From Lentinula raphanica (taxonomy: Eukaryota; Basidiomycota; Agaricomycetes; Agaricales; Omphalotaceae): DNA of 64,000 nt. The notes under the pieces were generated by a model. That model saw only the letters and a program-made list of their open reading frames with translations. It had not been told where the DNA came from and did not search any database. Position 1 is the stretch's first letter. Each line of letters begins with the position of its first letter. The stretch is from positions 744,001 to 808,000 of the forward strand of contig JANVFP010000009.1 of assembly GCA_027919835.1 (NCBI GenBank), written 5' to 3'. The position numbers and the translations under genes were made by a program. Shown here piece after piece: positions 21,379 to 60,266 of this stretch.

Positions 21379-21840
21379 CACTAGGCGGGAGGTCAGTTAT
21401 TCCCGCCGAAATGATGCAGGAAAACAGCGGGGTTATATAAGTCCATTTTCGTAGTGAATTTACAGCAAAAAGAAGTTATCATTTCCTCTGAAAAAAATGA
21501 AGAACATAAAAGGTCATTTCGGGACATATTTCCTAGGAAAATTTTTGTGACATTACTTTTTTATTTCTCTTGGAATAAAGTATTATTTTCCCTTGAAAAC
21601 CAAACTTAATTTCCACTGAAAGATAAATCCCAATTTGATGATTATTTCCTAAAATATTACAAAGGAAAGTAATGCTTGTTTTCTCCTGAAAGGAATATCG
21701 AGATTGCTGGTCTTTTTTCTTTGTAAATGAAGTACAATTTCAAAGGAAATACATATCGCCCAAAATTGGGCAAGCACCGGGCACAAAATTGGGGATATTC
21801 CCAGATTGATTACTAACATTATTTTCGGAGAGAATCGGCA
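21379..21840 (+). repeat. CACTA left terminal inverted repeat (462 bp)
   Basis: It starts CACTAGGCGGGAGG and ends near GAGAATCGGCA. It contains about eight short imperfect palindromes of the TTTCC-N2-GGAAA or TTTCC-N2-TGAAA kind, such as ATTTCCTAGGAAAA, TTTTCCCTTGAAAA and TTTCAAAGGAAA. These resemble CACTA subterminal repeats bound by a transposase accessory protein. I count about 12 differences from the right copy. Confidence 0.85.
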
Positions 21841-21889
21841 GCGCGATTAGTATTAGCGCTTGTTCATTGCAATCTCCCAGCCTTCAGCT

Positions 21890-24800
21890 TCAATCCTGGG
21901 GACACAAAATCAAAACCACATTCGCTGATTCATATATATTGATGCTTACAGGAGGGAGAGCCAGAACAACAGCTAGATCTGAATTCAAATTCCACCTCGC
22001 AGTATGGCCTATAATGCGATCAAGTTCCAGAATTTCCAAGGTCTCGGAGAGTTCTGAGGATACTAGTTTTGCCTCAAAGCCATCAAACCAAAAGGCCTTG
22101 AATGGGTCTGGATCACACAGTCGCTGAGGAAGATTGCAACGTACAACCAACTTGATGCTGTGATCTTCTTCAAAAATATACTGGATGCGAGCCGCAACCC
22201 ATTCAGACCCTTGACTGTCTTCAGGGAAGTAGTATATGTAGGAATTTCCTTCTCCAGGAGTATTTGGAATGGTGAAGAAGCCTTTTCCAGACGGGGCTTT
22301 GATTCGAGCCAGAAATCGCACATGGGTCATCAGCCCAAGGCCAGGTATGAATCGGTCAGATGAATAAGGAATGGGTAGACGTGCGTTGTCTTCTTCGGGC
22401 ACTTCTTCCGATTCGGATCCAAATATCTTATCCAACAACTTCTGGCAGGATTTGACCAACGGTGGACAATCAGGGCGCCAGAGCCATCGCCGAAAAGCGG
22501 CTTTCAGTGAAAAGGAGTGCAGCAGTGTGCTTTCGAATTTACCTAAAAAGATCCTGAATGCTCATAGCCAAATGGTTGAAGGGCGTAGCGAACACACCAG
22601 TTTTATGATTAGTAGGAATCTGGCGAAGTCTTTGAATCAAGTTTTCCCCAGGAAAGCACCACCAATTACGGACATTGCTAAAGAGATCCATGAAATCATA
22701 CATGTGAAAGGCAAGATGGTGACTAGGGAGTGCAAAACCTGGAAAGCTTTGCTTCAATCCAAGGATATGTCTCTGCAGCAGAGTCTGAAACCTGTCTCTA
22801 CAGGCCTGCGTCAGATCTTTCTTCATCATTGCTAAAGACGCACATGTTAGACACATGCTAGTTTGGAGCGCCGGAGCCATTCGCATAGCATCGGGACCCG
22901 CCAGAGGAGAGCTGGGCTGCCAAAGACTGAGCTGTGCAAGGGGTAGATAGATGTCAAACATGGTACGCCAATGGTCTGCCTTCAAGGTGCCTACTCTGGC
23001 AAGCCCAGACCCCACGGGTGGTTTACGAACCCAGGCTGGCACTATGACCTCCTGTAGTGCACGATGGAGCCGATCTAGTAAGGCAGCGGAGTCTACAGGC
23101 ACCTTTGATAACGGGGTAACTGGTTTATGAGATCTCTGTGGAGCTGGAGTTAAAGCGTCTTCCAGTGGTAGAGTTTCCTCGTAACTTACCCATCTGATCA
23201 AAGCTTTTACCATGTCTTGCTTAGATGGGTTGCCTGAAGGGACAGCGGGAAGGCAATCAAGTTCTGTGCAGACATACTCTAATGACGGTTTCATGGCGCG
23301 ATTAAGCTTTGCTGACAGCTTCGCAGCACTGACTACTCCTTGTTCAGAGTCCTCCAAAGGTTGACACAGATATCGGTGAAGATCGCCAACAGCAATCAGT
23401 GAATTCAGGTCTAGCTGACGGAAGAGATTTTCCAGTGGAGGTGCATTTGAGATTGCCTCAGTATTGAGGATCGCAAGGTCAGGAAATAGGGGGAAATCAT
23501 GATGAAAGGCCAAGGAAGAGTTATGATGGCTCGACTCTGAACCTTTGTCATCAGGATTTTGCAGGCCTAAGGCATGTCCGCTACGGAAGAAGTTTTGCAT
23601 CAAGATGAGAAACATTGTGTGCATAGGATCGATGGTTATCTGCCTGCTTGGACACCAGTAAGGAAGCATCCAGAACGCAGAATAGCGAGTACCATATAGG
23701 TTGTACACAGAATCACGCTCATCAGTTGATTGAGCTTGTCGCCATTTCTCCGCCCCTTCCCGAAGCCTCTTGTCATTTGCATGCCCAAAATCTGAGATGT
23801 CAGTCCTTAGCGTATTGGTTGGATGCCAAATCTGACAATAGAAACACCATTTTCTATGTATCACGTCGGAGAGTCCGCAGAAAGGTCGAGACGCTTTCAG
23901 GTCCATTTTGATACAAGCAAGTGCAATCCTATGGGTCCTTTGATATGGAAGATGCTCTTTTGAATTTGGATCAAGGCTGTCGGAGGCAGAGGCATAACAG
24001 GTGACCCCCCGCTCATACCCAATCACTAGCTCTTCCATAAGTGGCTTCAGGTAGTGCTGATGTTGAGCTTCCAGTGTGCTAGGTTCATGCGGACCAGCTA
24101 TGAGGCCAAAGATCAGCGTGAAAGCTGGATCTTCTCGAAGGGCGATAGGAAGATTGAGACAGGTTATTGACAGGACGCCAGTGGAGTTGACCTGCTTCCC
24201 TTGAAGATTCCCTTCAATGTTGAAGAAATCCGCATGTAAGCTGAAAAACCATCTTCCCTCTGAACCTCGATCTGCTACAAACAGACCTCCCTGGCTATCT
24301 GTGAATTCGCGGTAGAAACGACCATCAGAGGTGCGCTTCTTATCTCCAGGAGACTCTGGGGTTTCGTCTATCTCTTCACAGAAGGAGTCGCCATATCGCT
24401 CAATACCGGGCAGTGCAAGCAGACGACCAAACCATTCAAAAAAGGAGTAGTATTCAAACGTCTTTATTGGACTACCTCTAACATCCACCACAGGTGCACC
24501 GCATATTCCTCGAAATTCAGCAGATCGATTTGAGCAGTGGGCCTGGTATACAGGTACGGACTTGGGTCCACCGGGGTAGGAGGGTTCATATATAGCGCAG
24601 CACGTAGGGCAAACCGCATATGGGATGGTAGGGACATCGAGATTGAAACGTCTACCGACAGTTTCGATTGTATCTGGGATTTCTTCGAAGGCCAGTTTCT
24701 GTTGAAGATTCGGTCCGCCGGACAAGGCTGTAACAGCGTTGCCGAATATCTTCATGAACCGCAAGGTGAGTCCAGCAGCTGGGCTTCCGATCCCATAGAA

Positions 24801-25873
24801 AATTTGATCAACCAGTGCTTTCATATAGGCGATCAAAGCGACTGTACTCCGACTGCAGCCTGGGTTGAAGAAGGATGCCTCTGTAAACTGATTCAGTCCG
24901 AATTATATTGCTATGAAGGTTTGTTGACTGACTGTTGTTAATTCTATGGGGAGTCAAGTCAGGAAAAGAGGCCCTCCAATCGGCGAGTTTTTGTTTCAAG
25001 GCGGATGCCTCTGCAAGCACCTCAGTAACAGCTGTTGTAGTTCCTGCGTGATGTATTGAGTTGACTTCTTCAAAAATCGAGATGGATGCCGTTTCTATGT
25101 CTGCTAAGATGCGTTGAAAAGCTGGCTGGTCAGGATTTAGACCGTCAAGACTTTTGAGGTAGTCCCGTATCTCGGTTTGGAGACTACGAGCCTGAAAGAG
25201 AGCAGACCGGGTTGAGTTGCTGCTGAGCATGGGATCACCGTAAGGATGGGTTGAAGTTGCGGTTATGCTTTGAAGCTGATGTGCCCGAAGATTAGAATGG
25301 GTAAACGAAGGTGAGTAAGACCCTTCTTACTGCTATTTCCCCTATTTCCTCCATGATCGATTCATATAAGGACACTGGTTCTTCATTTGCGAAATTGCTA
25401 GCAGGGGCAGTTATAGAAGGATCAACCAACATGGTGGAGGAGGAAGATGCTGCGAATGGTGTGGTTGGGAAGGTAGCAGTTTTCACGAGATTGGCAGTGA
25501 TATCCCGTTTCCCAAAAAGCAAAGGACTTGAGGAGCGTGTCTCGATGTAGGTGGGAGTATTTTGCATGGAAAGCATGGATGGAGAAGGGTTCGATGGAGA
25601 AGGGTTCGATGGAGAAGGGTTCGATGTAAGAAAAGGAATTGAGGAGTGCGTTTCGACGTAGGTGGGAGCATTTTGCATGGAAGGTGTGGATGTGGATGGA
25701 GAAGAGTTCGATGTTGCAGACAGAAATGTGTTGGTAGGAATAGAGGCCTGTGAAGCTGATGTGTGAAGTTCTTGCCTTGGTTTCTTGCTTTGGCCAAAGT
25801 AGCTTTCAATGAGCTCAGCATGTCGGTCTCTTTTTCGGTGAGCCATCAGGCGATGTTGGTAGCAAGGTCTCAA
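21890..25873 (-). CDS. Tnp2-family CACTA transposase
   Basis: There are four main exonic blocks: 25873-25292, 25230-24808, 24836-22539 and 22459-21890. The start is unresolved, since the N-terminal LRPCYQHRLMAHRKRDRHAEL frame runs upstream past 25873. It has a CPTC...C zinc-like segment near 24620. The core reads EYYSFFEWFGRLLALPGIERY, SLHADFFNIEGN and NLPIALREDPAFTLIFGLIAGP. A second cysteine cluster (WCFYCQIWH) follows, then LPYWCPSRQITIDPMHTMF, the Tnp2 DPMH block. In relatives I recall the YW residue pair is usually followed by Asp, but here it is Cys, which may affect catalysis. The gene reads toward the left end and stops 50 bp from the terminal repeat. Divergent transcription with the WD40-like gene leaves a promoter gap of only about 140 bp. 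Confidence 0.85.
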
Positions 25874-26014: not shown

Positions 26015-27711
26015 ATGCCTACCTTTCAACGGATGGCTACTCTTCCTGGACCTCAAGATTCTGTCCATGCAATTGCTTTTTCTGCAGACGCCAAGTACCT
26101 CGCAGCAGTTGGCAAGTCTTGTAATGTTTTTCCTTGACTGTCGACTGACTCGTTGCCACTCGTTGCCAATAGGGCCCTTTGGAATCATTGCCTGGGATCT
26201 TAGAGCATTGACACATTTGAAAACACCAACGAAGCGTTGCAAGACTAGAAAATATCTGACATGCGCTTGGCTTGAATTCAAGACCGATTCCACAAACTCT
26301 CAGCACGTTCTCGTCCTCGGCTCTCTGGATGGCCAGATCACTGCTTGGGATCTGAACGAAGAGGACAAGGTACACATCAACACCTTATTTGCATCTTCCT
26401 AGTTCTCATCTTGCTCAGGAATTTCAATGTACACGCCATCCCGCCCCGCACATTCCCCCGGAGCAACTAATTTTATGCCTTGATTCTTCTACATCTGGAG
26501 CTGGGCGAGCATGTCGCGGGCAAGTAGTTGCGAGCTTTGCCGACCGAACAGTCAGATCTTGGTCTTTGTTTGTCAATGGTGGTTTCAACCTCATATTCTC
26601 CATGGAGTTCGAAGAAGGCTTCCTTCCGAAGACCGTATGCATTCACCATGAAACTCGAAACATCTACGCTTTCGCTTTGAAAGGGGGGAAACGGTATGTC
26701 GTCAACTAAATAACATAACCTTGCTAGTTTCTTTGCTGACTATGTGATCAGTGCGATTTTACATCATCGGTCTGGAATCATTATAACATCTACTGAGAAT
26801 GGATGTGAAGACATGTGCGTTGCTCAGTACACTTGTTTGGCTTCCATTTATATGCTGCTTCAGGACGTATGTTGCTCTGGATCAATCTAATGACCGTTTT
26901 GTCACTCGCACTGGGGATGGTTATCAACTATTTCGCGCAAGTAACCTTTGCCATGTTCGTACCTTCGAAGACTGTGCTACTCTGCCCATCCAACATCCAT
27001 GTCAAGTGGCTTTTGTCGAAGACGGGCACAAAATTGTGGCAGGTACAGATCAGGGAAAGGTCTTGATTTTCGATAGCGACACTGGTCATTTGGAACAAAC
27101 CGTAATGCACCCAAAGAGCAAAATGGTTCAAACAGTCGCGGTAAGCATTGATATCATCATCCTATTCATCTTCGGCTGAGATACTCATGTTTTTGGCAGA
27201 CCTGTACTGTCTCCAATGGCCACTACATGGCCATTGCAGGTTCCTCCCCAAATCAAACATCAGATGTTATCGTCTGGCGTAAGAAGGTTCAAGTGTTGCC
27301 TTTCGACTCGAAAGCCGTTCTACAAAAGGACAAGGACCCTATTATTTTCTTGCTTCATAGGTCGACCGCCACGCTCTTGTGCTATGCCTTCATCGGCATT
27401 ATGTTTTTAGTCTTTGCCATTGTCATCAGTCTTCCCAGGGTTAGACTCGAGGGGTTCAATAATCGAGCCAGCTTGATAAAGGGACTAGTTGCAAAACACA
27501 TCTCACAGGCGCTCACCCAGCTCCTCGAATATGACTTTCACAAACAGCTGGGGCTGCGATATATCCCGGCGTCAGAGGTAAGTATGTTTACTGTGTTCGA
27601 TGAATTCTGACTCAACAGAACTAGATTTTGCCTGTACTCACGCAGTATTTCGAGACAAATATCTTAAATCGACTGGGTTTACAATTTGTGAATGCCAGGA
27701 ACAGGGACTAG
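26015..27711 (+). CDS. WD40-like beta-propeller protein with C-terminal membrane segment
   Basis: Seven exons (26015-26111, 26173-26369, 26419-26693, 26752-26814, 26864-27140, 27200-27577, 27646-27711) sum to 1353 nt, or 450 residues. Repeated blade-like strands are visible: SVHAIAFSADAKYLAAVG, GIIAWDLRAL, HVLVLGSLDGQITAWDL, VVASFADRTVRSWSL and KVLIFDSDTGHLEQTV. A single hydrophobic segment near residues 356-382 (TLLCYAFIGIMFLVFAIVI) suggests a membrane anchor. Intron 1 appears to use a GC donor (GCAAGT). No enzyme motif was seen. It lies head-to-head with the transposase, so it could be an accessory protein of the element or captured cargo. Confidence 0.65.
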
Positions 27712-28090
27712 GTTTTGAAATCTGCAGTGTACTGTATTGCTGGAGACGTTCTTCGTAGTCGTCATCAACTTACACTTCCCATCCCTATAACAAACCCGCG
27801 ACGCAAATACCATGTACCAAATGAAATCAAGTTTGAGTTCCCCTGTACACTCGAAGTTACTTGAAATCAATTGGACGAACAATGCAAGAAGATATTAGAT
27901 TAATGAACTGTCCAAGAAGAAGGACCTGCGACAACTGACTCAAATGATGGTTCTATGTGAGCGCCCAAGGTAGGATTTGACAAAATGGACGGGAATTCAT
28001 GTTGGGCAGTATGAGAGTCGGGATGCGGTTCTTTGAATATGTTCAGAACCAACGACACCAAGTTGCATGCCAACTTCGCCAGCTCTCCTG

Positions 28091-30494
28091 TTACCTTCTG
28101 GTTTGTCTTCGCCTTCTGTGTGGGATTGTCTTCAGTAATTCGAATTTTCCGCAAATGTGGCTACGCACCCGCACAGCATTCAATATGCTCAACGCCACAC
28201 CAGACAATGCCTCCAGCGAATGATCATTCAAAGCAGATGCAAACAGATTCTCGTCGGCACAGTTGGCCTTCCGGGCAGCTTCTTGTCGAACCTTCAATGG
28301 AACTTTTTCCCAGTAAAATTTCTCCCGAGTTCCCTGAACAAGTTCAGCAGCTACGTATCGTGGGGATGAGGTGGCGTCGCTACCACTCCTATTAGTGTTG
28401 ACGCCCCCTGCATCATCTAGCGGCGTTTCCTGCATCACAAGGTCCTCCTTGAGACGTTCGACGAGGGCAAGCGCATTCGAAGATGAAGCGAGTCGGAGAT
28501 GACAACAGTCTGTTCCTTTGGTGTAGTCGACGTAATCGATAGCAGACCGTATGTCGAAATCTCTGCTATTGTCGGTGTCGCCACTCTTGCTCCTCCGTGA
28601 GAGTATGTTAGTGAAGAACGCATGAAGAATGCACAAAGAATGCTCGAAGAGTTGTCTTGTTAGTCCCAGGATGGATGTTCCGGATGAAGACCAGACAGTT
28701 GGAAGGATACGGTGGTGTGTGCGAAGAGAACTGAGTTGAAGAGACAGACGTAGGATGAAGAACTGGAGCATTTGTCTTTGACGGAGATGCAGATTAGGAG
28801 GAATCGGAAGACGTCGCCGGCGGTTCTGAGCGAGACGATGTAGCATTTGAAATACTCAGGACTTTGCGAACAGCTTCCTGCCTGACCTTCATCGGCACTT
28901 TCTCCCAATAGATCTCCTCCTTCTTTCCTTGAATACCTTCCACCTCTATATGCTTCGATGCACCAGCTTTCTCTGTGCCGATGGTAAGATCATGCACGGT
29001 ATGATGCCTCAAAGAGTGCTTCTGCAGCGCAGGAGCATGGGATGGAGAGGAAAAGCGAACATGACATGTGTCCATTCCCTGGTTGGCTACCCTGCTGAAG
29101 TCCTCCACTGGCCAGAGCCTTACTGAATAGAGAACGAAGTGTAGTTTTGTTGGTTCCAGGATGAACGTTGCGAACGAATACGAGACAATTCTGAGGGTAG
29201 GAGGAGGAGGAGGATAACTGTGATGAAGGGAGGGCAGCAGATGACGACATCAAATTCGAATCGACCTTGCTTTTTAAAATGAAGTTCTTCGTCACCAAGC
29301 TCTTCCTTCATCTGAGAAGCCAGTTCCTCTTTCTGTCTATCCTGCTCTGCCAAGACTTGTTCCCTCAGCTGTTGTTGCCAAGCAAGATACTCTTCCTTCA
29401 GCTGCTCCCATCGTATTTTGGGAAGGGCACGAAAATCATGCTTCCGAGCCTCCGAAATGGTTAGCTCTGCGTTTGACGGTGTGTCTGACGCGCTAGCAAA
29501 CGAAGAATCTGTTTCTACTCCTGCCTTCGACTGGCGACGTTTCCAGTCCCACGTCGTACAGAACCGGTCGACATCTTCCAAAGTCGAAAAGACGACAAAC
29601 GCAAACCCTTTGCATTTCGATCTCAAACTCGACCTCGAAGATTGAGGATCAGATGGTTCGATCTCAAGGTCAAGATGGTGTGAGGGAAAGGAGATACTCT
29701 GAATCTTGAAGGAGTCTGATGAAGAACTGAGATTCCATATGAGATGAAAGATGCCATGCGTGGTTCGATGATGCAAAGGTATGTTTTCCTACAGGAGTGC
29801 AGTGAGATTGGACTGATCCATGCATCTGGAAGTATCTACTATCACCTACGATGTAGACAGTCCGTTTTGCCCAGTAGTCTCTCGTGTACGTGACTTCTAT
29901 GCCTTCCAACATCCTTGTTCTCGACCGAATTTCGTACATCCCTTCATCTGTATTCGTCGACCGACGACGATGGACCAAAATTGGACCATGTCAGTCCTGA
30001 AAGCAACATCCTGACTTCGACGTGATTTTCTGCATGTTTCCGGAGAGCCTTTACTATCGCAGTTTCAGACAATGATTGCAGCTGTGACTCTGGGACAAGT
30101 GGTGAATGCTTCAGGATATAACTGAGGGGAACGACTAATCAATGAGGTTGAATATGCTCATACAGAGGAGGCGTAAAGCGAGACGTACATCCGTTTTCAT
30201 GTTCTGTAGTCTGTTCGATCCGTCTTCGCATATCCCCGTTGGCCCATAGTGCATATTCTGTCAAAGACAGCGCGAGTAAGGTCGAGATTTCTTCTACAAG
30301 CACTGATCCTTTGTCCGTATGTGATGTCAAAGACGCGGTGGTACTGGGTACAGGAGGAGTGTGAGGAAAGGTATTTGTTGCGACTCCTTTCCCTTTTGAA
30401 TCCACGAGATTTGAATTTCATGCTGCTGAGTTCGAGACCTGATTTTTTTTTGCATTTTCTTACCGACGTTGCGGGGAACGAAGGCAAACGACAT
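28091..30494 (-). CDS. LARP7/Pof8-like RNA-binding protein with tandem xRRM copies
   Basis: It starts MSFAFVPRNVG (30494-30464), then exons 30392-30189, 30134-29850 and from 29788. The La motif has ISTLLALSLTEYALWANGDMRRRI, VPLSYILKHSPLV and LSETAIVKALR. RRM1 starts YWAKRTVYIV and carries RNP1 KGFAFVVF. Two C-terminal xRRM-like copies follow: NCLVFVRNVHPGTNKTTLRSLF...MDTCHVRFSS...YWEKVPMKVRQEAVRK (about 29190-28800) and NCLVFIRNIHPGTNKTTLRAFF...IDYVDYTKG...YWEKVPLKVRQEAARK (about 28700-28200). LARP7-family proteins bind 7SK-like, U6 or telomerase RNA; Pof8 assembles fission-yeast telomerase. Copy 1 has a one-base frame break near 29110 and then a stop, so only one copy can be used per transcript. 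The splice near 29270 is unresolved. Confidence 0.7.
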
Positions 30495-30916
30495 CTACGA
30501 TCAGCCACTGGCCCAAGCAGAGGATGTTGAACAATGAAACTAAACTTGAAACTTCGTGGAAGTTAGAGTCCAAGCTTACATACGGCTGTTCCTATTTGGG
30601 ACCCCACCACAAGTGGAGCCATGTATAACACATACAACATAAACAGCCCTCCTCAATTCTAGTATATTCGCAAGCATTATACGTAGGGCTACATCGCAAG
30701 CATGTACATAATGCAAGTACCAACCATGAACATTCTACTAAATCCCATGTTGACCGAAGACATCAATATTCAAACCTCGGATTCGAGCAAACAGCGTCCG
30801 CCGAAGGTTTTTCAGTCGACCTTGTCCATGTACTGTGAATGCCACTACTGTGCGTTGCAATAACCGGAAATCGGATCTATTGAGTTGTTTCTGAGTTCCT
30901 GGAGACCAAGATGAGT

Positions 30917-31722
30917 TTATTCGACGACGCCAAGATGCTCTTCATTTATTGTGCCGATAGCGAACTACAATTGTATGTTAATGAAACCGATTTAAGCAGA
31001 CCAAAGCCAGAACTCACAATTTCCGTTGCATCTACACGCGTACCGACGATTTTTAGCCGTATTTTGGTGTCCTTTTCGATGATCTTGAAGCAAGATGGGT
31101 ATTTGTCAGAACGCGGTAACTTGAACCATGAGTGCATGCGACCTCACCTGTTGTTCCGGAATCCGAAGCGAAGGATGGCGGGTTCGAATTTGGTTCGAAT
31201 TTCATATCAGGAGGAATTAACTAAGAGGAGACCACAGTGAGGTTTTGAAGACGAGATGGTCGGAAAAGACTAACTTGATGAGCGACGAACACCGTCAATG
31301 GTCCGACGTCCGCAAAGAATCCCATCTATCGAATAGGAATTGAGCATTACTAGTGAGAAAGACATGCTGGACATGACAAACACACCTTGGCCACACTGGC
31401 AACCACACCATCCACAACCTCGCCTTTAAACGGCTTAAACACGATCGCTCTGTATCTCCTTATAAACTCGGCCTGCCCTGTCCCACTGATGACCATTCCC
31501 TTGCCAATGTCCAAGATAGAAACAACAGCGATGATATATCCAAACTTTCCAGAACATGTGCCTTCGACGTCTGAGTAAAGTTTGGATTCGAGGAAATTCA
31601 GCATGCGGGGGCCGAAGTAGGACGGGTGGAGCAGGATAGGGTGTGTCAATTCTTTCTGGGGAGTTTTCAGCAAGAATTCATGCATATTGTGTCCAGAAGG
31701 GAAAACTTACGATAAAGAACAT
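30917..31722 (-). CDS. RPB7: RNA polymerase II subunit Rpb7
   Basis: The exons read MFFI, then KELTHPILLHPSYFGPRMLNF through SDVEGTCSGKFGYIIAV and FIRRYRAIVFKPFKGEVVDGVV, then MGFFADVGPLTVFVAHQ, LIPPDMKFEPNSNPPSF, EKDTKIRLKIVGTRVDATEI and FAIGTINEEHLG, stopping at 30917. All introns can be placed with GT/AG ends and the frame is open, so the gene looks intact at the usual length (about 170-180 residues). With Rpb4 it forms the stalk of Pol II that binds nascent RNA. An essential single-copy gene inside a transposon is unexpected, so this is either a second copy or the host gene trapped between element ends. Confidence 0.9.
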
Positions 31723-31925
31723 GGTGGGTAGAGTGAGAGTACCATCGAGCGCCTGTTCAACAAACTTTCACTCAATTGCTTTAGGCGCTCGAAACTAGCG
31801 CTTGTGTTGCGCATTGTGCAGCGTGCTCCAGTCAAACAGTGTTTCTTCCGCTCAGAGTCTTACTAGAGTAGGGTTGCTTCATACAGATGATTGTATATAG
31901 GTGTTATATAGATACATGCAGCTAC

Positions 31926-32740
31926 TCAGAAGCCCTTCAGCTCCGCTAGCCTAGCTTTCATCCGTGGTCTGAAAATGCAAACTCATCAGTCAATTCCCAA
32001 AACCTGACAACGTTAGCAGTGGTCGGACTTACACATCCGATAACTTGGCCTTGAGGGCTTGCTTCTCAGTTTGCAGAGCTAGCCGCTTCTCTGCATCCAG
32101 TTTAGTACTACGGTGTACATGAATAAGCGGAGAAGCACAGAGAGCCTGAGAGGAACGAACTCACAATACATATCCACCTTGACCGTCATAGTAGTGTAGA
32201 ATCATTGCATGGTATTTCCACAAGGATGGTCGATGGGATACCGTAAGCAGTGTTATTCCTAGCTCTGTGGCATACTCCATCATCCGGCCTTCCATTTCTG
32301 GTGGGACCAGGGAGGTAGCTTCGTCTAATATAGCATACCACAATCGGAATACATGAGCACTCAACCGGAGTAAGGGAGTCGGGACGACAAGATCTCTTAC
32401 CTTCGGACGATGATAAATTAACCTAGCCCAAGCAATCTTCTGCTTATCACCTCCGCTCAGCGCATCTCTCCACTCTCTCACAGAGTCCCAACCACCTTCA
32501 TGTTCGATGACATTCTCCATTTGGATTACTTGTAATATCTTCAGTAGATCGTCGTCAGTGATTCCTCCTGTGAAGGAATTTCAGCCTGTCTAGACGTGCA
32601 CGAATCAGTTCATGTCGGCCTCACGGTTTATTATTTCCTGCTGGTTATGTGGATAGATGACTTGATCTCTCAGAGTTCCAGATGTAAGGTATAGTCTTTG
32701 TGGGATTAGAATGAACAAAGATACTGGAAGAATTAAAATT
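31926..32740 (-). pseudogene. ABCD-type peroxisomal fatty-acyl transporter, 3' fragment
   Basis: Only the C-terminal nucleotide-binding part is present: IPQRLYLTSGTLRDQVIYP, then [26 protein letters not shown], the ABC signature [15 protein letters not shown], Walker [11 protein letters not shown]-loop [14 protein letters not shown], and the tail ALQTEKQALKAKLSDV with a conserved last intron before KARLAELKGF. This matches the Pxa/ABCD half-transporter family. Upstream of about 32740 the homology ends: there is no Walker A and no membrane domain. The fragment still has its stop and last intron but no start, so it is a 5'-truncated copy. The missing upstream part is replaced by unrelated AT-rich sequence next to the RING gene. 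Confidence 0.8.
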
Positions 32741-32939
32741 GCATTGTGAACAATTTACGATATGAAGAGTAAAGTAGAGTACGTTTTAGGAGGTGAAAAA
32801 GGAAAGGCTACAAGCTGGAAAATTAAAGGCTGTAATTTTTGAGACGAGAATGTTGCATGAATAAACTTTGAGACGATGATAATGGAGCTATCGTCGATAG
32901 CTAAGCCAGACGCTCTATCTATCAACGGACTAGTCGGGA

Positions 32940-33972: not shown

Positions 33973-34074
33973 GGTAAGGGAAGAGCAATCAAGGGAAGAG
34001 ATAGAGCAAACAAGTCTGTGGAGCAGAGTGGAACGACTGAGATGAGTTGAAATTCTTGAACGATTTCGTTCCAT

Positions 34075-47170: not shown

Positions 47171-47399
47171 TTACCCAACTAGCCCAGGTTTGTGCAGCTA
47201 ATGACGGTCTTTTGCGGTTTTTCATAGTCTGAGGGCAGAATCAAACTCTGGAATGTTCAGAATTCATCTTTGGACCTACATATGGACTGCGTTTTTCTTT
47301 GGGATAAATGTTAATGACTGGTCTATAGGGAGCTGATCCCATGGCCTTGGAGGAAGGAGGTCAAAAATGAGTTATATATTTCTGCTGATCCAACTCACT

Positions 47400-50300: not shown

Positions 50301-53300
50301 TTCTCTGGCGTGTTTTGAGCGACAAAGCTGTAGAGGAGAAGAAGGACGGATACCTACCTCGACGTCTTCTTTTCCAGATTTGAAAAGTTCCGCGTCTTTC
50401 TTGAAAACCTCTAGGGATACAGAAGTCGTGCGATAATTTTCCTGTTGCAGAGTTAGTAGAAAACCAAGGTCTGGCTGTTTGCTATCTCACTTCTACTTTG
50501 TCTTTCTCCGCCCGAAGTGTCTCCAACTGCTTTTGAAGACCTTCGACCTTCAACACGGCATCCTCATACTGAGTTTTCCAGCTCGTCCCTGAGGTTTGAG
50601 CCTCTGCAAGAGACTCACCCCGGGTTTTGTGTTCATTCTGGAGGGATGTGTATTTTCTCTGGCGTGTTTTGAACGACAAAGCTGTAGAGGAGAAGAAGAA
50701 CGGATACTTACCTCAAGGTCTTCTTTTCCAGACTTGAAAAATTCTGCATCTTTTTTGAAAACCTCTAGGGATACAGAAGTCGCGCGATAATTTTCCTGGG
50801 GAAGAGTTAGTAGGAAGCCAAAATCTAGCTATTTTATCTCACCTCTACTTTGTCTTTCTCCGCCCGAAGTGCCTCCAACTGCTTTTGAAGACCTTCTACC
50901 TTCGACACGGCATCCTCATACTGAGTTTTCCAGCTCGTCCCTGAGGCTTGAGCCTCTGCAAGAGACCCTGCCCGGTCTTGTTGTTCAATCTGGAGGGTTG
51001 CGTATTTTCTCTGGCGTATTTTGAGGGACAAAGCTGTAGAGGAGAAGAAGGACGGATACCTACCTCGACGTCTTCTTTTCCAGATTTGAAAAGTTCCGCG
51101 TCTTTCTTGAAAACCTCTAGGGATACAGAAGTCGTGCGATAATTTTCCTGTTGCAGAGTTAGTAGAAAACCAAGGTCTGGCTGTTTGCTATCTCACTTCT
51201 ACTTTGTCTTTCTCCGTCCGAAGTGTCTCCAACTGCTTTTAAAGACCTTCTACCTTCGACACGGCATCCTCATACTGAGTTTTCCAGCTCATCCCTGAGG
51301 CTTGAGCCTCTGCAAGAGACCCTGCCCGGGTTTGCTGTTCAATCTGGAGGGTTGCATATTTTCTCTGGCGTGTTTTGAACGACAAAGCTGTAGAGGAGAA
51401 GAAGAACGGATACTTACCTCAAGGTCTTCTTTTCCAGACTTGAAAAATTCTGCATCTTTTTTGAAAACCTCTAGGGATACAGAAGTCGCGCGATAATTTT
51501 CCTGTTGCAGAGTTAGTAGAAAACCAAGGTCTGGCTGTTTGCTATCTCACCTCGGCTTTGTCCTTCTCAGCCTGGAGCGTCTCTGTTTGGCTCTGGAGAC
51601 CTGCAACCTTTGACACGGCATCCTCATACTGAGTTTTCCAGCTTGTTCCTGAGACTTGAGCTTCTTGTAGAGAACGATCTTTGTCCTGTAGTTCTCTCTG
51701 ATAAAAATAGAAGTCAGGAATTAGCAAAGTGCATCTCCCAATCAGAACCTCTTACAGAAGCAGCTTCAAATTTACACCGCCAATCTTGAGCTGCTGTATG
51801 GGATTCTTCAAGTCTGTTTTTCTCTTCTTGAGCTTGAGTTAACCGGACTTGAAGATTCTGGACAGCTGAAAGGTGCTCGCTCTAGGTACAGGTGACTAAG
51901 GTCGGGACGCCAGTGCGAGAAGAGGAGACTCACCTCCAGCTTGAGTTTCTCTTCCTGAGCTTTGGTCAACGCTACCTCGACAGACATGAGCTGCTCTTCC
52001 TGCTTAGAGGTGACTCGGCATACCGGTGAACCAGTCTCGACATGTTACTCACCTGCAGTATGTCCTTCTTGCTTATGTGTCCTGTGAATTCCTTTTGCAA
52101 GTTTTCCCGAAGATTGTGATATTCTTCTTGCTTGTTGATCAATTGCTCTTGTGCTTCTTTGAGAGAGTTTCGCAGAGTCTCTACTTCAGATTGTTGCGAG
52201 GCAAGCTCTTTCTATGTTGCAGTCAGATGAGCAGATGAGGCTGGCATTAATATGTCATTACCTCTAGGCTTTCTTTGCCCAGTCTGTAGTCATTTCCATC
52301 GGTCTTCAAGATGTCGAGTGAGACACAGACAGCGCGATGTTCTTGCTATGGAAAGAATCAGAAGCGAACCTACAACGCGTTCGTTCAGAAAGTTACCTCA
52401 AGATTTTCCTTCCCAGTTCGAGCTTCGTTTAACTCCCTTGCTAGGCTTTCTGCGGCAATGCGATGTTCATCCTGTCAACAGACCTAAGAGGGCGCAGTGG
52501 CAAGAGTGGTTTTGGGCTTAGCTTGCCTCCAGGTTCGCCTTCTCTAGTCTGGACGCCTGAAGTTTGTCCCGTAAAGCTTCCAACATAGACAACATACTGT
52601 GCTCCTTCTACAGAATCATGATCAGCCGAAACCAAGATTGAAAGACTCTCTGATTACCCACGTCCTCCTGTTCAGTGTCTGCCACTGACGCCCATATGGT
52701 TTCAGCCTCGGCTTGCAGTGCGGCAAGATTCTCCTGCAAGAGTAGTAAGTAAGCATGAGACCCTGAAGCAGTCCTTGAAGTGTACGCGCCAACAGTTCTT
52801 CGTGTTGTCTTCGCCATTTTGCAGTTGCAGAATTTGCCTCCTCCAGGGATTCCTGCAGAGCTTGTGGTGAAGCATCTTTGTCCACTTGCGGCTTTGAGAA
52901 TGAGTTGAAAACGAGGCTCAAAATTCTTGTGAGTTGGGGCTTACTCGAAGTTGGTCGGTTTCCACCTTATCAGTCTCTAATTGTTTTCGGACGCCTTCCA
53001 ATGATTCACAGGCTTTTCGGTGATCCTCCTATGGCGATGTGAGTACTGGTGTGTTGAACAGAAGTATGAACTTACGCTCAAGCGTTCATGCGAGGCTTTC
53101 CACTGAAGACACGTCCCTTCTGTGATATGGAGTAGATTGCTAAGCTGTCGATTCTCTTTCTCTAACCTCGCTTTCTCCCTTGCTGCGTTAAGTCCACCAG
53201 GTGTATTAGCCTGAATTAGATACTGTCAAGTCAGCTTCGATAGCTTGGAAAATAGGGCGCCACAAACGCACATCGAAAAGCCGCAAATCAGCGCGAGCCT

Positions 53301-53814
53301 GGTCCCGTTCTGACTTTAGCTGATTACCATTGATCAGCAACTTATCGCGCTCATTCTGAAAACTGATCAGTGACGATTGTATATACCAGTTTGAACTGAG
53401 CTTGCCTTCAGTCTGTTGTAGTCAGCATTCTATAATGAGTACAATGAGTTTAAATTTTCTTCTTCATGGACAGGTCCAGATTGACCTTCGATCCTTCTCT
53501 CAATTTCTTGTTCTCATTTTGTAGATTCTGCACGATTTGCCCCAGTTCTTGTACTTCCTGCTTGAACTTTTCTATCAGGGCTTCTTGTTCGACTGCGCGA
53601 ACCTTCGCTGGCTACAGCACCGAGAATGATGAGTTTTCAGTTCTCAGAAGTATTCTTGGAAAATGTATATAATGCTCACGTATAGGTTTGGTTCGTCATC
53701 TGTCACGTTTTCAACCCGGCCTCGCTTTCCGATTGTCTAAGAATACATTTCAGCAAGGTAGAGGAGATTTCTGAGATTAGAGCCACTCACCGGAGGTGGT
53801 TCAGAACTAGACAT
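47400..53814 (-). CDS. Long coiled-coil protein with duplicated exons and PGFSASGPQ repeats
   Basis: It starts MSSSEPPP (53814), then TIGKRGRVENVTDDEPNL and PAKVRAVEQEALIEKFKQEV, and runs through more than 20 short coiled-coil exons. In the middle, one exon (SLAEAQTSGTSWKTQYEDAV...LQKQLETLRAEKDKVE) is present about six times at a spacing of about 354 bp. The C-terminal part is a 9-residue repeat, PGFSASGPQ, encoded by a 27-bp minisatellite. One duplicated exon has a CAA-to-TAA stop (51239-51241), and a 223-bp inserted element interrupts the 27-bp array. The full protein is therefore made only if that exon is skipped and the insert is spliced. Function is unknown; the composition suggests a scaffold. 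Confidence 0.55.
47541..48420 (-). repeat. 27-bp coding minisatellite (PGFSASGPQ), about 8 + 15 units
   Basis: The plus-strand unit is close to GGACCCGACGCGCTGAATCCAGGTTGA. About 8 units lie at 47541-47757 and about 15 at 47981-48420, separated by a 223-bp insert. Units vary at a few positions (CCG/CCC, AAT/AAC, GGTT/GGCT). Confidence 0.85.
47758..47980. mobile_element. MITE-like element in the 27-bp array, 223 bp
   Basis: It starts ATCAGCAAAACTGACCTGG and ends with the imperfect inverse, CCAAGGGTACTTTTCCTGAT. Inside lie near-perfect arms AGAGATACCCCCCAAAACCT and the inverse AGGTTTTGGGGGGTATCTCT. It is flanked by GGAC on both sides, a 4-bp duplication within the repeat unit. Short GCCTGA/GCAAGCCTGA repeats fill the centre. 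It contains no coding sequence. Confidence 0.75.
49430..51560 (-). repeat. Tandem exon-intron repeat, about 354 bp x 6
   Basis: Equivalent points at 49887, 50242, 50596, 50948 and 51302 are 352-355 bp apart, with a more diverged unit near 49520. Each unit holds one coiled-coil exon and its introns. Some neighbours differ by only a few bases, showing recent unequal crossover or conversion. Confidence 0.85.
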
Positions 53815-54180: not shown

Positions 54181-54867
54181 ATGCCTTGCTGTTTTTGCAC
54201 ATCTTCCCAATCTCACTCTGTGAACCCACCTTATCCTTACCCTCATATCCAGGCCAATGCTATGCCTCCTCCACACCTTCGCACCTTGGCCACTGAATCC
54301 CCCTATCCCCACCCTCACCTCCAGGGTAATCTCAGAAATCCCTTGCTCGCTGAGCAGATTACAGCTATTAGTGAACCTCAGGCATTGATACCTAAACCAA
54401 AAGGGGAGGTATGCAGGCCGGGTCGAGGCGGTTACAATCTAGAACACGTACTTGGGTGGGACAAAGACGACCTCGAAGAAGTCAAGGTCAGTGATATCAG
54501 TTCAGGTTTATCATACATGTAACAGCAGCTTACCTCCTGCTTTTCAGAGAAGCGTCAAAGAGGTTGTGGCACAAAGGCTGGATTGTGCTAAATCTTTCAC
54601 CAAGCAGTCCACCATCTCTTTGGAAAGCGCGAGACAGGAGGCAAGTCACTTAACCCTTATCGTTTACTGCCGTATCTTAGCTGATTCCACTAGATTCTGC
54701 TCAAGTTTCCAGGATTGCAGGTGTATGCCAATCTCTGGGTTATCAACGACTTGATTCGAATCCGCTTGATGTACGAGAGGACCGCACTCAAACGTAGAGA
54801 GATATCAGCACGCGATCGCGCAGCGAAACGGGAGGCCCTCTTGAAGGCTTTATCTGAAGTGGTATAA
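54181..54867 (+). CDS. Small 'GRGGYN' family protein, 181 residues
   Basis: The exons 54181-54486, 54548-54640 and 54721-54867 sum to 546 nt. The N-terminus is Pro/His-rich; then comes GRGGYNLEHVLGWDKDDLEEVKRSVKEVV, a helical region with LDCAKSFTKQ, and a C-terminal VYANLWVINDLIRIRLMYE helix. From memory, this GRGGY...LGW layout belongs to a small multi-copy family of unknown function in mushroom genomes. The second intron uses a GC donor (GCAAGT) if the frame is right. The gene looks complete. Confidence 0.6.
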
Positions 54868-55974
54868 GCCAATGCACAAGTTACCATCACACGCTCCTCT
54901 AGCTACTTCGCCTGTATCTCCCTCCACAATGTACATGCACTCGCTACAACTTACCATAACAAACTCCTCGCCTTTACTCTAAACATTTGCAGACATACAC
55001 GCAATACCAGACCTTCCTTAGACCCTTAGAATACTGCCATAATCTTCCGACATTCATTGTCTTTCCTGATGTTACTCTAGCAAACCCTTTGATCAAGATA
55101 AGATAATAATATTAAATCATCTGTCGACTCGAATATTAATATATAAAACTAAGCGCTCAAGAGAAGTTTTGGGAGTTCGACGTCCACATTCTCTCTCTTT
55201 GAAGCTTCGCCACTGTTCTTTAATCCTCATGCTAAGTTCTGGCAACCTGTGATCTTTCTCTCAGTTCAGAATAACATGGGCACTGCAACACCCGGAGAAG
55301 AAATCGCAGCCAGCTCACCGCTCTTTCCATCTGTCACTTCCAGCAGCCCCTTCAGGGTACCAACACGTTGCGAACGATTGCAGAATTCCTCATGGCGGGT
55401 CTATGGACACCTGTCTTGACGCAGTGTGATTGTATACGGAGAGCTGAATTCAAACCAGATGTGATTTTCCATTTTGGTCATAAAGACAACACCGGTACCG
55501 GAAGTCCTTTCTTCATGGTCACGAAATTCCGGAAATGAACGTTTGTGGCAATGCTTTTCGGGCTAAGGTCGACATGATGCAAACACAATGGGGTGCTCGC
55601 AACGTCCGTAGGCACACCGATCGTGACGCAGTGTGATAATATAGAGGGGTGTATTCAAATCGATGTGGTTTCTTTGGTTTTCAATCTCTCACAGTGGCTT
55701 GTCGCCTTGCGAGCTTGCGGTCGGACTGCTTTCCAGGGTATTCAAAACCCCATCAAGGAGCAAATCGTCTATCAAAAGCTTAGTGGTTAGATTACTCTGA
55801 GGACGTTGATCCAATCACCTCTATACAGAACTCAAGGTTCTTTGAGAAGCGCCTCCTCAGATTGTACTTCACGAAGACCTTGACAGAGGGCGGAATCTGA
55901 AGGTTCTCTGAAGTTGCAAGGCAGGGGTCATTCGAGATGCTCTTACCTCCGGGGTGCACCTAACAAAGAATCAT
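54868..55974. other. Intergenic, no recognised gene
   Basis: Two stretches (about 55425 and 55633) share a CGCAGTGTGAT...TA(T)A-GAG context and look like a degenerate local duplication. No frame has a recognised family. Confidence 0.4.
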
Positions 55975-57851
55975 ACTGAAATCATCGAGTCAAAAGTCGT
56001 ACGATATGAATAAAGACATCGAAACGTACAATCGTTCTCAGAGCTATGGACAGGAGAACGTTTAGCCTGATGAAAGTATTGAAAGCCGAGACAGAAGAAG
56101 GCTTTCCGGGTGGTTGTTTGAAGGCCAATGCTGGATTCGGATGCTCCCAATATTCGTCGTCGCATTCGATGGGCATATCCAGATCATAGCTAAAAACATT
56201 TCTCAGCGAATGAATAATACGTGGAATAAAAGACTGACTCTTCGTCTTGTATGGCACATGGTCTACCCAAACCTGTGCTGAACAAACGATCCATGCAAAC
56301 CAAGACCCTTATCCAAACGAACGTCAAAATCAAGCACTGACGTATATGACGAACCCGTACTCACCAGAACGCCCTCTTCCATAGCTCATTTTCCACGGTT
56401 AAAGGCTTGTCCGCTTTACGCCGGTGTGCGCCTACATCCTGAGCAAGACGAATCCCAATACCGACCATTGTCCAGCATGAATGGGGTGCGGATGAACCTT
56501 GAAGAAATTGTACTGAGAGCTACGGAACGCCTAAGCAACGTGAGAATCGAGATGAAAATAAACACGTACGCAGTAAAATTGGAGGTCATACAGCGTCGGC
56601 GGTGCCAATAACGACTTGCGCACAACTTGGACTTGGTTGAAATATTTCCAGCCGCATGAATGCCAGGAATCGACTCCATCAAGTAAAACCCTATGGTCAT
56701 CGACATACCTTGACGCGACCGCACAGACTAACAAGACGATAGCGGCGAAACTTTCATTGTGGTAATGCAGCTTTTCGAGTACGGACCGTTCAAAAGTCGG
56801 ACGATGAAGGACAGGAAGTATGATATTGACGTTGTCGAAGTATGCGTCGATCAGAATGGTTCAGGAAAGCTGTAGCTAGGACTCGGCTTGTCAGAAGTGT
56901 TATCTTTCCACTTTTCACGAGACACGTAAGCCAAGGTTCACACAGCAGGAAAACATGGACGACATACAGGAAAGGGACGCCAGAATTCCGGCCTCCGTTC
57001 TCCCAGCACGATAGGTTTCATGTCAGTTTCCTTTCCAGTGAACTCCTGTTTGAGGTCAATCGCTGTTTTGATAAGCATAGCACCGCTCGATTTGCCGAAG
57101 AATCGATATTCGCGAGAGTCAACGTTCAGGCTCTTGAGATTGTCGACGAGCTCTAAGTGCTCCCTGTCGTCTGTGATTTGTTGGGAGGAAAGACCTGGGG
57201 ACATATCCCATCGGCGGATCGCGCTGATAGCGACTTCAGTAGTACTGTTCCGACTTGCTTCCTGGGGCGGATGTTTACGCTGCCATACATTCGATTTCGC
57301 GCTTGAGAACCCTGATTCCAGCTCTTTTGCTAGATCCAACTCCGGCATGAGATTACGGAAGAGGGCCGTCATTTTGTCTATCCGGTTTTCTAGACTTTCA
57401 ACGTATCTGAAGGCCTACGAATGAGCTGAACGAATAGCATGCAATAGTAGAAGAGACAAAGGCTTTCGGTGGTCCACGTTTCTGAACAAACCCATGAAAC
57501 CGTTTCGTATCAAGATGAGTCGACACGACACAAACCTTTGCTGCCTCTACGTACGTGCATTCAAAATTGTAGGCGATACAATTCGAGCATTGACTCCCGG
57601 GCATCTGCGTTCCATCGCCTTGCATAACGACAGAATTTAGCATCAACGTCGAACCAGGAAAGATATATGGACGTACATCGTACTACAGAGAAAAGGGTCA
57701 GCTTAGCACTTCATCAAAACATATTGAGCCTCATCTGACTTTTCTTTCGACGACATATGTCGCATGCACGCTGTATCCTCCTCTTCTTGGAGCTTTGGTA
57801 CTGCTCGTGAAAGCTTTGGTCGTCGTTGAGATCTTCTTCGTTGAACGACAT
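55975..57851 (-). pseudogene. Zn2Cys6 fungal transcription factor, 5' part only
   Basis: It starts MSFNEEDLNDDQSFHEQ at 57851. The zinc cluster ACDICRRKK-IRC-DGTQMPGSQCSNC-C is rebuilt across a 6-nt microexon (57682-57677). Linker exons read KRGPPKA, then YVESLENRIDKMTALFRNLMPELD and RFFGKSSGAMLIKTAIDLKQE. The fungal_trans domain has NIILPVLHRPTFERSVLEKLHYH, SFAAIVLLVCAVASRYVDD and LPIECDDEYW-like DMPIECDDEYWEHPNPALAFKQPPG. The match ends after NVLLSIALRTIY, and a short unrelated tail stops, so the C-terminal third is absent. Without it, DNA binding may remain but regulation would differ. I score it as a truncated copy. Confidence 0.75.
57677..57682 (-). other. 6-nt microexon inside the zinc cluster
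   Basis: On the minus strand TACGAT is preceded by CTCTGTAG and followed by GTACGT. Joined to AAGAAAA before it and GCGATGG after it, the frame reads KKIRCDGTQMPG, restoring the expected third cysteine. The flanking introns are 57 and 58 nt. Confidence 0.75.
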
Positions 57852-59170
57852 GAAAGTAATTCTCAACGTATCGAATTAGCCGAGGAAATCTTAATAGTCT
57901 TCGGTTTTGTAAGCAGAATTACGTGAGAAATTCTGTGCCTAAATAGCCGCATCCGCGGTTCACCCGCTCGTACTCCATATTTCTTGTATCTTCTAATTTT
58001 CGATACTTGCTCAGCAATAAATATTCTTAGAATCACTCTCGTGGTAAGTAGCGACAGCTCCTCATAGTGCTTCTTAGCAACAGGCTTTTCTCGAGCCTTC
58101 CAAAGTTATACATACCTCGCTGATTACGGTCTGCATGCCAATTTTGTATAAGGTACACGCAAAGAACACGTAGCGCCAACATTACGCGGGTGTTCTTGGC
58201 CATCGTACGACCTTGGTCAGCTTGGTCATTTCAGCTCCACGTTGAATCAGCTGCGCATTATCACAGATAGATTCTTGTATCAGCTTCCAGCTAAGTATAG
58301 CTATCCGTCCGCGATCGCGAGTGAGGGTTGACGTTGGACAATGGAGGCCCAGAAAGATCAACACAGAAAAAAATGCATTGCATATTATTACACTGAAGTA
58401 CACATAGAAATTGAGCTATGCACAAAGATTAAACCCTATGACAGACATGGAGAAAGATGGAGAGATGGAAAGAGAGACTAGGACGACGAATCGAGGTGAG
58501 TAAGTAGTACTAGAGTACAAGCAGAAGAAGAGATATACGATGAAAGCGATGCATAGAGGACGTATGGTGACGAGCGAGCGAGTAAGTAGTAGAGTATGAG
58601 TGACACGGGATGATGATGATGATTGCAATATAGCGGAATGAGGAGAAGAAAAAAATTTTACCTAGCGAGGAGGTAGAAGAAATACAATACACGATGCGGG
58701 AACCCATAGAAAAAAAAACAAAAACTTACACTCAGAAGAAGAGTAATCAAAGGAAACCCTTTTGGTCCGGTGGTTCAAAGTGCTGTGAGAAAGTCCAATC
58801 ATATCCAAGAAATAAAAGAAGGCCTTTATCGCCCGCCTCCAGTATTTTGCAGCGTTAACATCGTATTTTGCAGCGTTAACATCGTAATTTGCAGCGTTGA
58901 CATCATATTTTGCAGCTGACGGACTTGATGTGAAGATGACCTTGGCAAGAGGCTGAAAGTCAAGACGTATCAGTGGTTTTTCACCTGAAAGGTGAGGCAT
59001 GACTCAGACGCATTCTTTCGACTTTTCTTCAAGTTTCAAGCTTCTTCTAAAGGAGCAACGGACGTTATGATCGCAAAGTGGAGGAATTGCTTCCACTGAT
59101 CATGAAGGGGTTAGATGATGTATATTTTCCGCGATGCACCACTATGCTCACCCACAAATTACACCTGAGC
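57852..59170. other. Intergenic with a 21-bp tandem repeat
   Basis: I see no supported gene. Near 58840-58915 the unit TTTGCAGCGTTAACATCGTA is repeated about four times. Purine-rich simple sequence occupies 58430-58660. Confidence 0.5.
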
Positions 59171-59305
59171 TCGCTTCACCCAAGACTGAATCTATCACAC
59201 CTCATAGACCCTCGATCTCTCATGTATCCTTCCAATGTGTCTCGTCCAGATATCACATACGCGACCTCGGCTCTATCAAGTAAATCAAGCTCGAATGAGG
59301 CCTAG
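59171..59305 (+). pseudogene. Ty1/copia reverse-transcriptase remnant
   Basis: The frame reads LSHLIDPRSLMYPSNVSRPDITYATSALSSKS, which resembles the conserved GSLMYL-N-TRPDI-YAV-LS end of copia RT. No other retroelement domain or LTR surrounds it, and the frame stops at 59305. It is a short dead fragment, perhaps picked up with other sequence. Confidence 0.55.
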
Positions 59306-59804
59306 TTGTGGAGTATTGACGACTTCATACGTTGTAGCTTTGGCTGCGGAGCATCCTGGGGGCCCGGTTTGCGGTGAGCGATACACAATAGGATACCAAG
59401 GCTCGATTTCAGGAGGCGAAGGAATCTGTCTCGGACGTAGTTATTTCCTAATTCTGGACCTAGCAAGACTCCCAAACTGGAAAAGACGAGGAATGGCTTC
59501 CTGTCGTCGATCTTGATGAGCGGCCAACCGGAAATGCTCGGAGATGCTTGGAAGATGCTCACCGTCTATTGCTGGAGAGAATATATACCGTTCCTTGTCA
59601 TCGTCATCGTCGTTGCGTTGTATCGCCTGCATCGTTCGAGTTCAACTTTAGAATTTGACTAATATCACGAACCTAAGTCGGACTCAATGACAGAGAAAGG
59701 ACCGCTAATGATCTCCATTCGAATGCGAGTTGAATGTTGAAGATGGTCGTGTGTGAACTTGTGAATGTTGAAGATGGAGTCGAGTTGATACAAGCGCTCA
59801 AGTT
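59306..59804. other. No recognised gene before the right terminal repeat
   Basis: Short frames exist on both strands with no domain. A GTTGAAGATGG pair near 59740 and 59768 is a small repeat. Confidence 0.4.
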
Positions 59805-60266
59805 TGCCGACTCTCTCCGAAAAGAATGTTAGTAATCAATCTGGGAATATCCCCAATTTTGTGCCCGGTGCTTGCCCAATTTCGGGCGATATGTATTTCC
59901 TTTGAAATCGTTTTTCATTTACAAAGAAAAAAGACCAGCAATCTCGATATTGCTTTCAGGAGAAAACAAGCATTACTTTCCTTTGTAATATTTTAGGAAA
60001 TAATCATCAAATTGGGATTTATCTTTCAATGGAAATTAAGTTTGGTTTTCAAGGGAAAATAATACTTTATTCCAAGAGAAATAAAAAAGTAATGTCACAA
60101 AAATTTTCCTAGGAAATATGTCCTGAAATGACCTTTTATGTTCTTCATTTTTTTCAAAGGAAATATTAACTTCTTTTTGCTGTAAATTCACTACGAAAAT
60201 GGACTTATATAACCCCGCTGTTTTCCTGCATCATTTCGGCGGGAATAACTGACCTCCCGCCTAGTG
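59805..60266 (-). repeat. CACTA right terminal inverted repeat (462 bp)
   Basis: This is the inverted copy of 21379-21840, ending CTCCCGCCTAGTG at 60266. The same TTTCC/GGAAA palindromes are present. Differences are scattered single or double substitutions, with no obvious indel. Confidence 0.85.

Follow-up and report, generated by a model that had tools for sequence, protein, structure and literature searches.

A probable giant CACTA transposon with companion genes and copies of host genes in the mushroom Lentinula raphanica

Is a 38.9-kb tract of a mushroom chromosome that begins with CACTA and ends with its inverse a single mobile element, or ordinary chromosome that happens to lie between two similar ends? 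The question is raised by a 64,000-nucleotide stretch of the Lentinula raphanica genome (hereafter the window; contig JANVFP010000009.1, positions 744,001 to 808,000), which belongs to contig C9 of an assembly of 49.06 Mb in 75 contigs; all C-numbers below denote contigs of this assembly. We conclude, with a probability of roughly 0.88, that window positions 21379–60266 (38,888 bp) are a single giant CACTA/EnSpm-type DNA transposon. An initial annotation, made from the sequence alone, had proposed that the whole 38.9 kb moved as one unit, and this proposal is supported by the ends of the element, by the flanking GGT, and by a second complete giant with common genes.

The left end of the element, at 21379, begins CACTAGGCGGGAGGTC, and the right end, at 60266, is its exact inverse, which places CACTA..TAGTG termini, as in CACTA/EnSpm elements, on a pair of inverted repeats. 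The left arm (21379–21840, plus strand) and the right arm (59805–60266, minus strand) differ at 12 of 462 positions (97.4% identity), and they are the sole inverted-repeat pair of at least 60 bp within the window. Directly outside the arms, GGT is present at 21376–21378 and at 60267–60269, forming a 3-bp target-site duplication of the kind made by the superfamily. The inverse CACTA termini, the GGT flanks and the 462-bp repeats about 97% alike, all noted in the initial annotation, thus stand. It had also pointed to further copies bounded by the same repeats as a check on the element. A 482-base left-end query against the whole assembly gave two matches, both of them the ends of the window element, and a genome-wide search with the first 29 bases at up to three mismatches returned only these two ends, one per orientation (reversed control, 0). 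Further copies of the same 462-bp repeats were therefore not found in the assembly, but elements with related ends do occur elsewhere in it.

In particular, C18:25560–68261 is a second complete element, 42,702 bp long, with inverted repeats of ~525 bp that are 99% alike, CACTAGG ends, and CCA on each side. The left ends of the two elements are ~59% alike across 453 alignment columns. A pattern built from the ends of both giants occurs at 22 places at three or fewer mismatches (reversed control, 1), and the nine places at two or fewer mismatches comprise the ends of both giants, a pair on C42, a pair on C2 and one end on C23. The C42 pair bounds an 11,244-bp relative (C42:280572–291815) with a TCT/TCT duplication, and the C2 pair bounds a 1,252-bp relative (C2:596639–597890) with an ACA/ACA duplication; because no transposase match was listed on these contigs in the genome search, both relatives are probably non-autonomous. 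Matching 3-bp duplications were present at four of the five candidate end pairs examined. The pair that failed, C23:687072/716949 (29.9 kb), was rejected as a further giant since its flanks mismatch and the likeness of its left end is confined to 34 bp. The second giant and the two smaller relatives with matching duplications indicate, at the level of sequence, that we are dealing with a family of giant multi-gene CACTA elements rather than with one odd locus. Furthermore, given a second giant that has its own duplication and shares genes with the window element, it is very unlikely that the ends were paired by chance. Segments in the first 10 kb of the C18 element are 93–99% alike to C14, C38, C1 and C36; for its 45–55 kb part, the genome search gave no match of this grade beyond the element itself.

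The transposase gene, of the Tnp2/CACTA type, occupies 21890–25846 on the minus strand. Our own model has four exons and encodes 1264 residues in an open reading frame, and its end at 21890 is 50 bp from the inner edge of the left repeat, exactly where the initial annotation had put a Tnp2 transposase; the position thus held, but the Tnp2 match is weak when it is made with the window protein alone. The domain (PF02992) is matched at E 0.01 or better by 12 of 18 aligned transposase homologs, and the assignment is firm only by way of these relatives. The catalytic residues, numbered in the 787-residue central reading frame, are D225, D334, C(2)C at 353, H..H at 728, and E753. Specifically, D225 and D334 are present in all 18 homologs, E753 in 12 of the 12 rows with a residue there, C(2)C in all rows with a residue there (15–16 rows), and H..H in all 13 such rows. 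The protein family therefore has a DDE triad with C(2)C and H(3–4)H between the second D and the E, which is the pattern given for EnSpm, Transib and Plavaka (PMC12730594, section 3.1.5). Every PDB match of the predicted transposase structure at E 0.001 or better, five in number, is a RAG1 chain (probability 0.99–1.00; template modelling (TM) score 0.24–0.35), a hint that the fold may be RAG1-like.

At least 60 transposase matches, counted per exon, are present in the genome (57 of 97 candidates scored). Among the matches listed, the closest relative is at C18:39720–41981 (65% identity), and the transposases of the window and C18 elements differ with a proportion of nonsynonymous differences (pN) of 0.22 and of synonymous differences (pS) of 0.79. 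A 14.4-kb contig of another L. raphanica strain, F5878, encodes a transposase (P0001) that is 91.6% identical over 1040 columns with gaps counted, and 97.7% identical in one 217-residue block. This close relative implies that the lineage is not limited to the strain studied here, and the idea that the element is private to it was dropped.

Numerous short binding motifs near the termini are a feature of CACTA elements. In the window element, a palindromic TTTCCnnnGGAAA-like motif is matched 12 times in the left repeat when overlaps are counted, or at 8 separate sites, as compared with 0.22 at the interior rate and at most five in any of 1000 first-order resamplings, for a pattern that was picked only after the sequence had been read. 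These palindromes are plausible candidates for transposase binding sites. They are absent from the C18 element's left repeat, which implies that binding sites may differ between lineages. We propose that the transposase would bind the terminal repeats, perhaps via the palindromic motifs, cut at CACTA, and paste the element with a 3-bp stagger. The best reading of the locus is thus cut-and-paste transposition by a Tnp2/RAG-like DDE enzyme, where it is the structure that we observe and the movement that we infer.

Besides the transposase, translated comparison of the window and the C18 element identified genes common to both giants for a WD40 protein, a RING protein, a protein that matches nothing in Pfam and a low-complexity protein, together with a short frame at 54.4 kb. 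In the window, with exon borders that are approximate because the gene finder uses a length-favouring score, the WD40-repeat protein is at 26033–27760 (plus strand; approximate limits, Pfam matches below cut-off) and the RING-finger protein at 32940–34074 (minus strand). The Pfam-less gene, BTB-like by eye and present in two copies in the C18 element, is at 34962–35620 (plus strand); the low-complexity protein, with a 27-bp repeat array and an approximate exon model, is at 45945–48968 (minus strand); and the conserved short frame, shared with C18:64856–65267, is at 54181–54870 (plus strand). A long coiled-coil protein with ~354-bp tandem repeats (49060–53814, minus strand; exon model uncertain) is a further candidate. 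Between the two giants, the RING gene has a nonsynonymous divergence (dN) of 0.13 and a synonymous divergence (dS) of 0.59, the BTB-like gene has a dN of 0.31 and a dS of 2.22, and the WD40 gene has a protein change of 0.40 with saturated silent change, over 64 codons only. These rates point to constraint on the companion genes that the giants have in common.

The companion genes also tend to lie near transposases. A RING query has 26 genomic matches, and when the six rows from the two giants themselves are excluded, 17 of the remaining 20, on 12 contigs, have a transposase match no more than 30 kb away, and for 13 of the 20 the distance is at most 15 kb. Several of these matches fall in one neighbourhood, so they do not count as independent, and the 30-kb cut was chosen after the places had been seen. 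The 30-kb zones around transposase matches make up 4.2% of the genome. Likewise, the WD40 gene of the C18 element matches five other genomic places, all five within 30 kb of a transposase match. A search of a protein collection with the RING protein gave six relatives among the candidates scored, which were those with most words in common, all from L. raphanica, one of them the window's own; the deposited protein C8R42DRAFT_719784 is the window RING gene fused with frames of a captured segment. At 32032–33972, the depositors' protein P0121 joins the RING gene to captured-segment frames, and it is possibly a new chimeric gene, possibly an annotation error. A TET/JBP domain was not present among the reading frames scanned. 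We propose that the companion genes (RING, WD40 and others) may serve the element.

Two further observations touch these genes. A dispersed repeat of ~225 bp, with more than 30 copies at 96–100% identity, interrupts the 27-bp array of the low-complexity gene at 47738–47984. Outside the element, at 1267–1692, is a gene whose relative (64% amino-acid identity in the translated comparison) lies inside the C18 giant at 35.6–36.0 kb.

Comparison of the interior with the genome matched four host places, together ~7.9 kb. The largest segment (27883–32728, minus strand) derives from C18:624071–630255 (87–94% by BLAST) and comprises a LARP-type xRRM gene, an RPC25-like fragment and further frames. The others derive from C13:1245240–1248050 (36725–38244, minus strand; 91–95%; an SNF2-type helicase gene with internal deletions), from C26:71818–72844 (41512–42527, minus strand; 82%; membrane-transporter-like, with Mem_trans below cut-off and a broken frame), and from C29:210098–210650 (44080–44615, plus strand; 94%; the N-terminal part of a mitofilin-type gene). 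At the matching places, C13, C26 and C29 have long open genes for the SNF2 helicase, the transporter-like protein and the mitofilin, respectively, of which the element has pieces. The C29-derived piece sits in a longer open frame belonging to the element, which could be a chimera. Copies of host genes thus lie between the terminal repeats while their sources are still in the genome, as in transduplication.

The LARP copy is the most informative about how host DNA was acquired. The source gene on C18 is open. Our own 716-residue model falls short of its end; the LARP proteins of two other L. raphanica entries have 783 and 784 residues, are 92–93% identical, and align to the C18 source over 776–777 residues in one stretch. 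In the element copy, the exons contain six indels, of which five shift the frame, as well as two stops, and GT/AG is retained at both introns; introns together with frameshifts and stops imply copying at the DNA level followed by decay. The copy is without the last part of the gene and is joined to source sequence ~1.2 kb further on, at a common run of ~7 bases (CCTCCAG). A 14-base BLAST overlap at 28203–28216 was rejected as a long junction repeat, since the source letters share only ~7 bases. The RPC25-like SHS2 domain is recognizable in both copies (51.8 and 51.4 bits). For the frames at 32.0–32.6 kb, a reading as an ABC-transporter ATPase, made by eye, had no Pfam match. The deposited protein C8R42DRAFT_719781 matches 27903–29788 of the window.

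In a tree of LARP proteins, the captured copy falls outside the native, EV360 and EV361 alleles with support 71, and it has 34 unique sites as compared with 26 in the native protein, which weakly suggests that the capture is older than the split of those three lineages. A derivation of the copy from strain EV361/F5880, considered on the basis of local identities, was not upheld by this tree. Substitution-only identities between captured segments and their matches are lowest for C26 (83.2%), lie at 89–95% for C18, and are highest, at 98.0%, for part of C13 and for the longer of two C38 segments described below. This spread is consistent with several captures at different times, with constraint on the sources also contributing. 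We propose that the host segments would have come in as DNA on separate occasions, whether through faulty repair of breaks or through the fusion of elements lying side by side. The host genes in the element are, as judged from their reading frames, mostly decayed or truncated copies of genes that are fuller elsewhere. The claim of the initial annotation that the element carries host genes therefore holds for segments from four host places, but not for working cargo.

Two segments of the element are shared with C38: 227 bp at 45614–45840 (plus strand; C38:415040–415269, 97%) and a longer one at 55972–58842 (minus strand; C38:419377–422263, 97%) with a partial fungal transcription factor, together 3.1 kb. 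A reading of them as simple captures was set aside, since the C38 gene model is partial and the inner borders match the left flank of the element in the window. The C38 locus (414901–415400 and 419101–422550) is a mosaic, whose outer parts match the element interior and whose inner borders match the left flank at 2412–5081, and it may be another capturing element. A short frame at 42682–42843 (minus strand) matches a sugar transporter family just above the cut-off (22.8 bits); no source was found for it in the genome, and it is maybe an older capture.

Could the two ends instead belong to two partly deleted CACTA insertions in opposite orientation that bracket 38 kb of ordinary chromosome? Such a composite would account for the presence of only two copies of the terminal repeat in the genome, and a good part of the interior is indeed host-like. 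It does not fit GGT on both outer flanks, nor a second giant of similar size with common genes and its own duplication; moreover, the host segments of the interior are copies of genes fuller elsewhere, which argues against an old chromosomal block. We regard the composite as very unlikely. An assembly artefact, or a segmental duplication with chance inverted repeats, we hold to be extremely improbable. The assembly was taken as deposited, which favours this explanation, but the window lies inside a 1.5-Mb contig, four of five candidate end pairs have a matching 3-bp duplication, and in a control of 200 kb of C9 outside the window neither the C18 stretch nor the source pieces were matched at E 1e-10. 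This control covers those 200 kb; within the window but outside the element, 2412–2634, 4944–5081 and 10902–10952 match the sources or C38.

Several points weigh against a single giant transposon, or against parts of that account. The insertion site was read in the assembly of one strain only. The window transposase alone scores 16.4 bits on PF02992 (cut-off 28.6), and its structure model is weak, with a mean predicted local distance difference test (pLDDT) value of 57 and the TM scores to RAG1 of only 0.24–0.35 given above. The similarity of the coiled-coil protein between the giants is short and weak. The source genes come from our own gene finder, without transcripts, and those on C13, C26 and C29 extend to the edge of the sequence retrieved, or almost to it, and were thus seen only in part. 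The direction of copying of the two C38 segments is unclear, and ~4.8 kb (38.2–41.5 and 42.5–44.1 kb) plus smaller gaps are without an assigned origin.

How does a single CACTA transposon of this kind compare with known systems? Soybean Tgm-Express is reportedly a CACTA element with captured gene fragments. Host gene fragments inside CACTA elements are described in PMC8978399 and PMC13317346, and the plant gene-capturing elements (Pack-CACTA, Tgm-Express, and those of Chenopodium) resemble the window element in this respect. Unlike them, the window element is fungal, keeps its transposase, draws on several host places, and has conserved RING and WD40 companions; with an open transposase frame, and hence without the non-autonomy of Pack-CACTA, it falls outside Pack-CACTA as strictly defined. 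Fusion of neighbouring elements has been proposed for capture by plant Pack-CACTA (PMC13317346). CACTA elements reach 16.5 kb in C. quinoa (PMC8978399), and EnSpm elements of Chondrus crispus are 16–20 kb with 4–5 reading frames (PMC6431247). The latter are multi-frame and enlarged like the window element, yet about half as large, and the window element is about twice the largest CACTA sizes that we found in print. Titles and abstract openings, in a search without bioRxiv and most subscription journals, contained no fungal CACTA element of such size.

Among fungal relatives, the EnSpm families of rusts are bounded by CAC..GTG, with 3-bp duplications, and fungal EnSpm and Plavaka elements have a CMCT-type transposase and, in some families, TET/JBP genes (PMC12730594). 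Plavaka has a similar type of transposase, but its ends are TGT..ACA or CATCA..TGATG (PMC12730594), whereas those of the window element are CACTA..TAGTG. For fungal EnSpm or Plavaka, the abstract and sections 3.1.5 and 3.2 of PMC12730594 mention neither giant size nor the capture of housekeeping genes. Helitrons move by a rolling-circle mechanism and are without inverted repeats or target duplication. Those of Pleurotus ostreatus have host gene capture in a mushroom in common with the window element (PMC4289320), but they are a different element class. In Pyrenophora tritici-repentis, hAT and Tc1/Mariner elements carry genes between their repeats by transduplication (PMC3538342); as described there, they belong to other superfamilies, with a long hAT form of ~5.6 kb and many near-identical copies.

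The initial annotation had suggested a basidiomycete counterpart of Starships. Starships are giant, cargo-bearing and fungal like the window element, and PMC13066641 reports eight of them, of 41.9–605.8 kb, from a basidiomycete, Tremella fuciformis, so that giant elements as such are already known in basidiomycetes. The captain of a Starship is a tyrosine recombinase (PMC13066641), whereas the window element has a DDE transposase and its tested cargo is decayed; no tyrosine-recombinase domain turned up among the scanned reading frames, in which no search was aimed at it. The analogy therefore extends to size and capture, but not to the enzyme or to working cargo. The stronger view that the element is a Starship-like vehicle, one that carries functional host genes from one strain or species to another and so benefits the host, is in our judgement unlikely. 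Its size and variable cargo, the near relative of its transposase in another strain, and the position of the LARP copy outside the three sampled L. raphanica alleles (the copy may stem from another lineage) are in keeping with such a vehicle; against it are the broken LARP copy, the truncated C13 and C26 pieces, and the DDE enzyme, and no transfer event was seen.

The sequence around the element has features of its own. About 20 bp beyond the right duplication, at 60289–60911, is a repeat that resembles a long terminal repeat by eye, with at least nine other long copies at 96–99%. To the left, 11263–20469 is a long AT-rich stretch (GC content ~0.34–0.40) with plus-strand frames of up to 914 residues, the largest of which has no Pfam match and is sacsin/HSP90-like by eye. 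Further left, frames at 5179–7728 (minus strand) have what we take to be a hAT-like dimerisation motif.

The superfamily of the element is known; what is new is how large it is, which companion genes it has, and how many captures have gathered in a single element that looks autonomous. If it is read correctly, a fungal DDE element of the cut-and-paste type can reach ~40 kb, retain constrained genes, and accumulate host DNA from multiple loci. Annotation near such elements needs care, since the broken LARP copy (P0026) and the RING fusion (P0121) were both deposited as proteins. We put forward tentatively, as a possibility that we favour less than its opposite, that mushrooms harbour a lineage of giant CACTA elements with an accessory set (RING, WD40 and others) that aids their persistence while they collect host genes. 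If this is true, the accessory set might act on host ubiquitin or silencing pathways, and giant CACTA elements would be basidiomycete gene-shuffling vehicles built on a DDE enzyme. A cultivable mushroom genus would then offer a test system for the size limit of CACTA elements, the purpose of their companion genes, and gene capture by DNA transposons.

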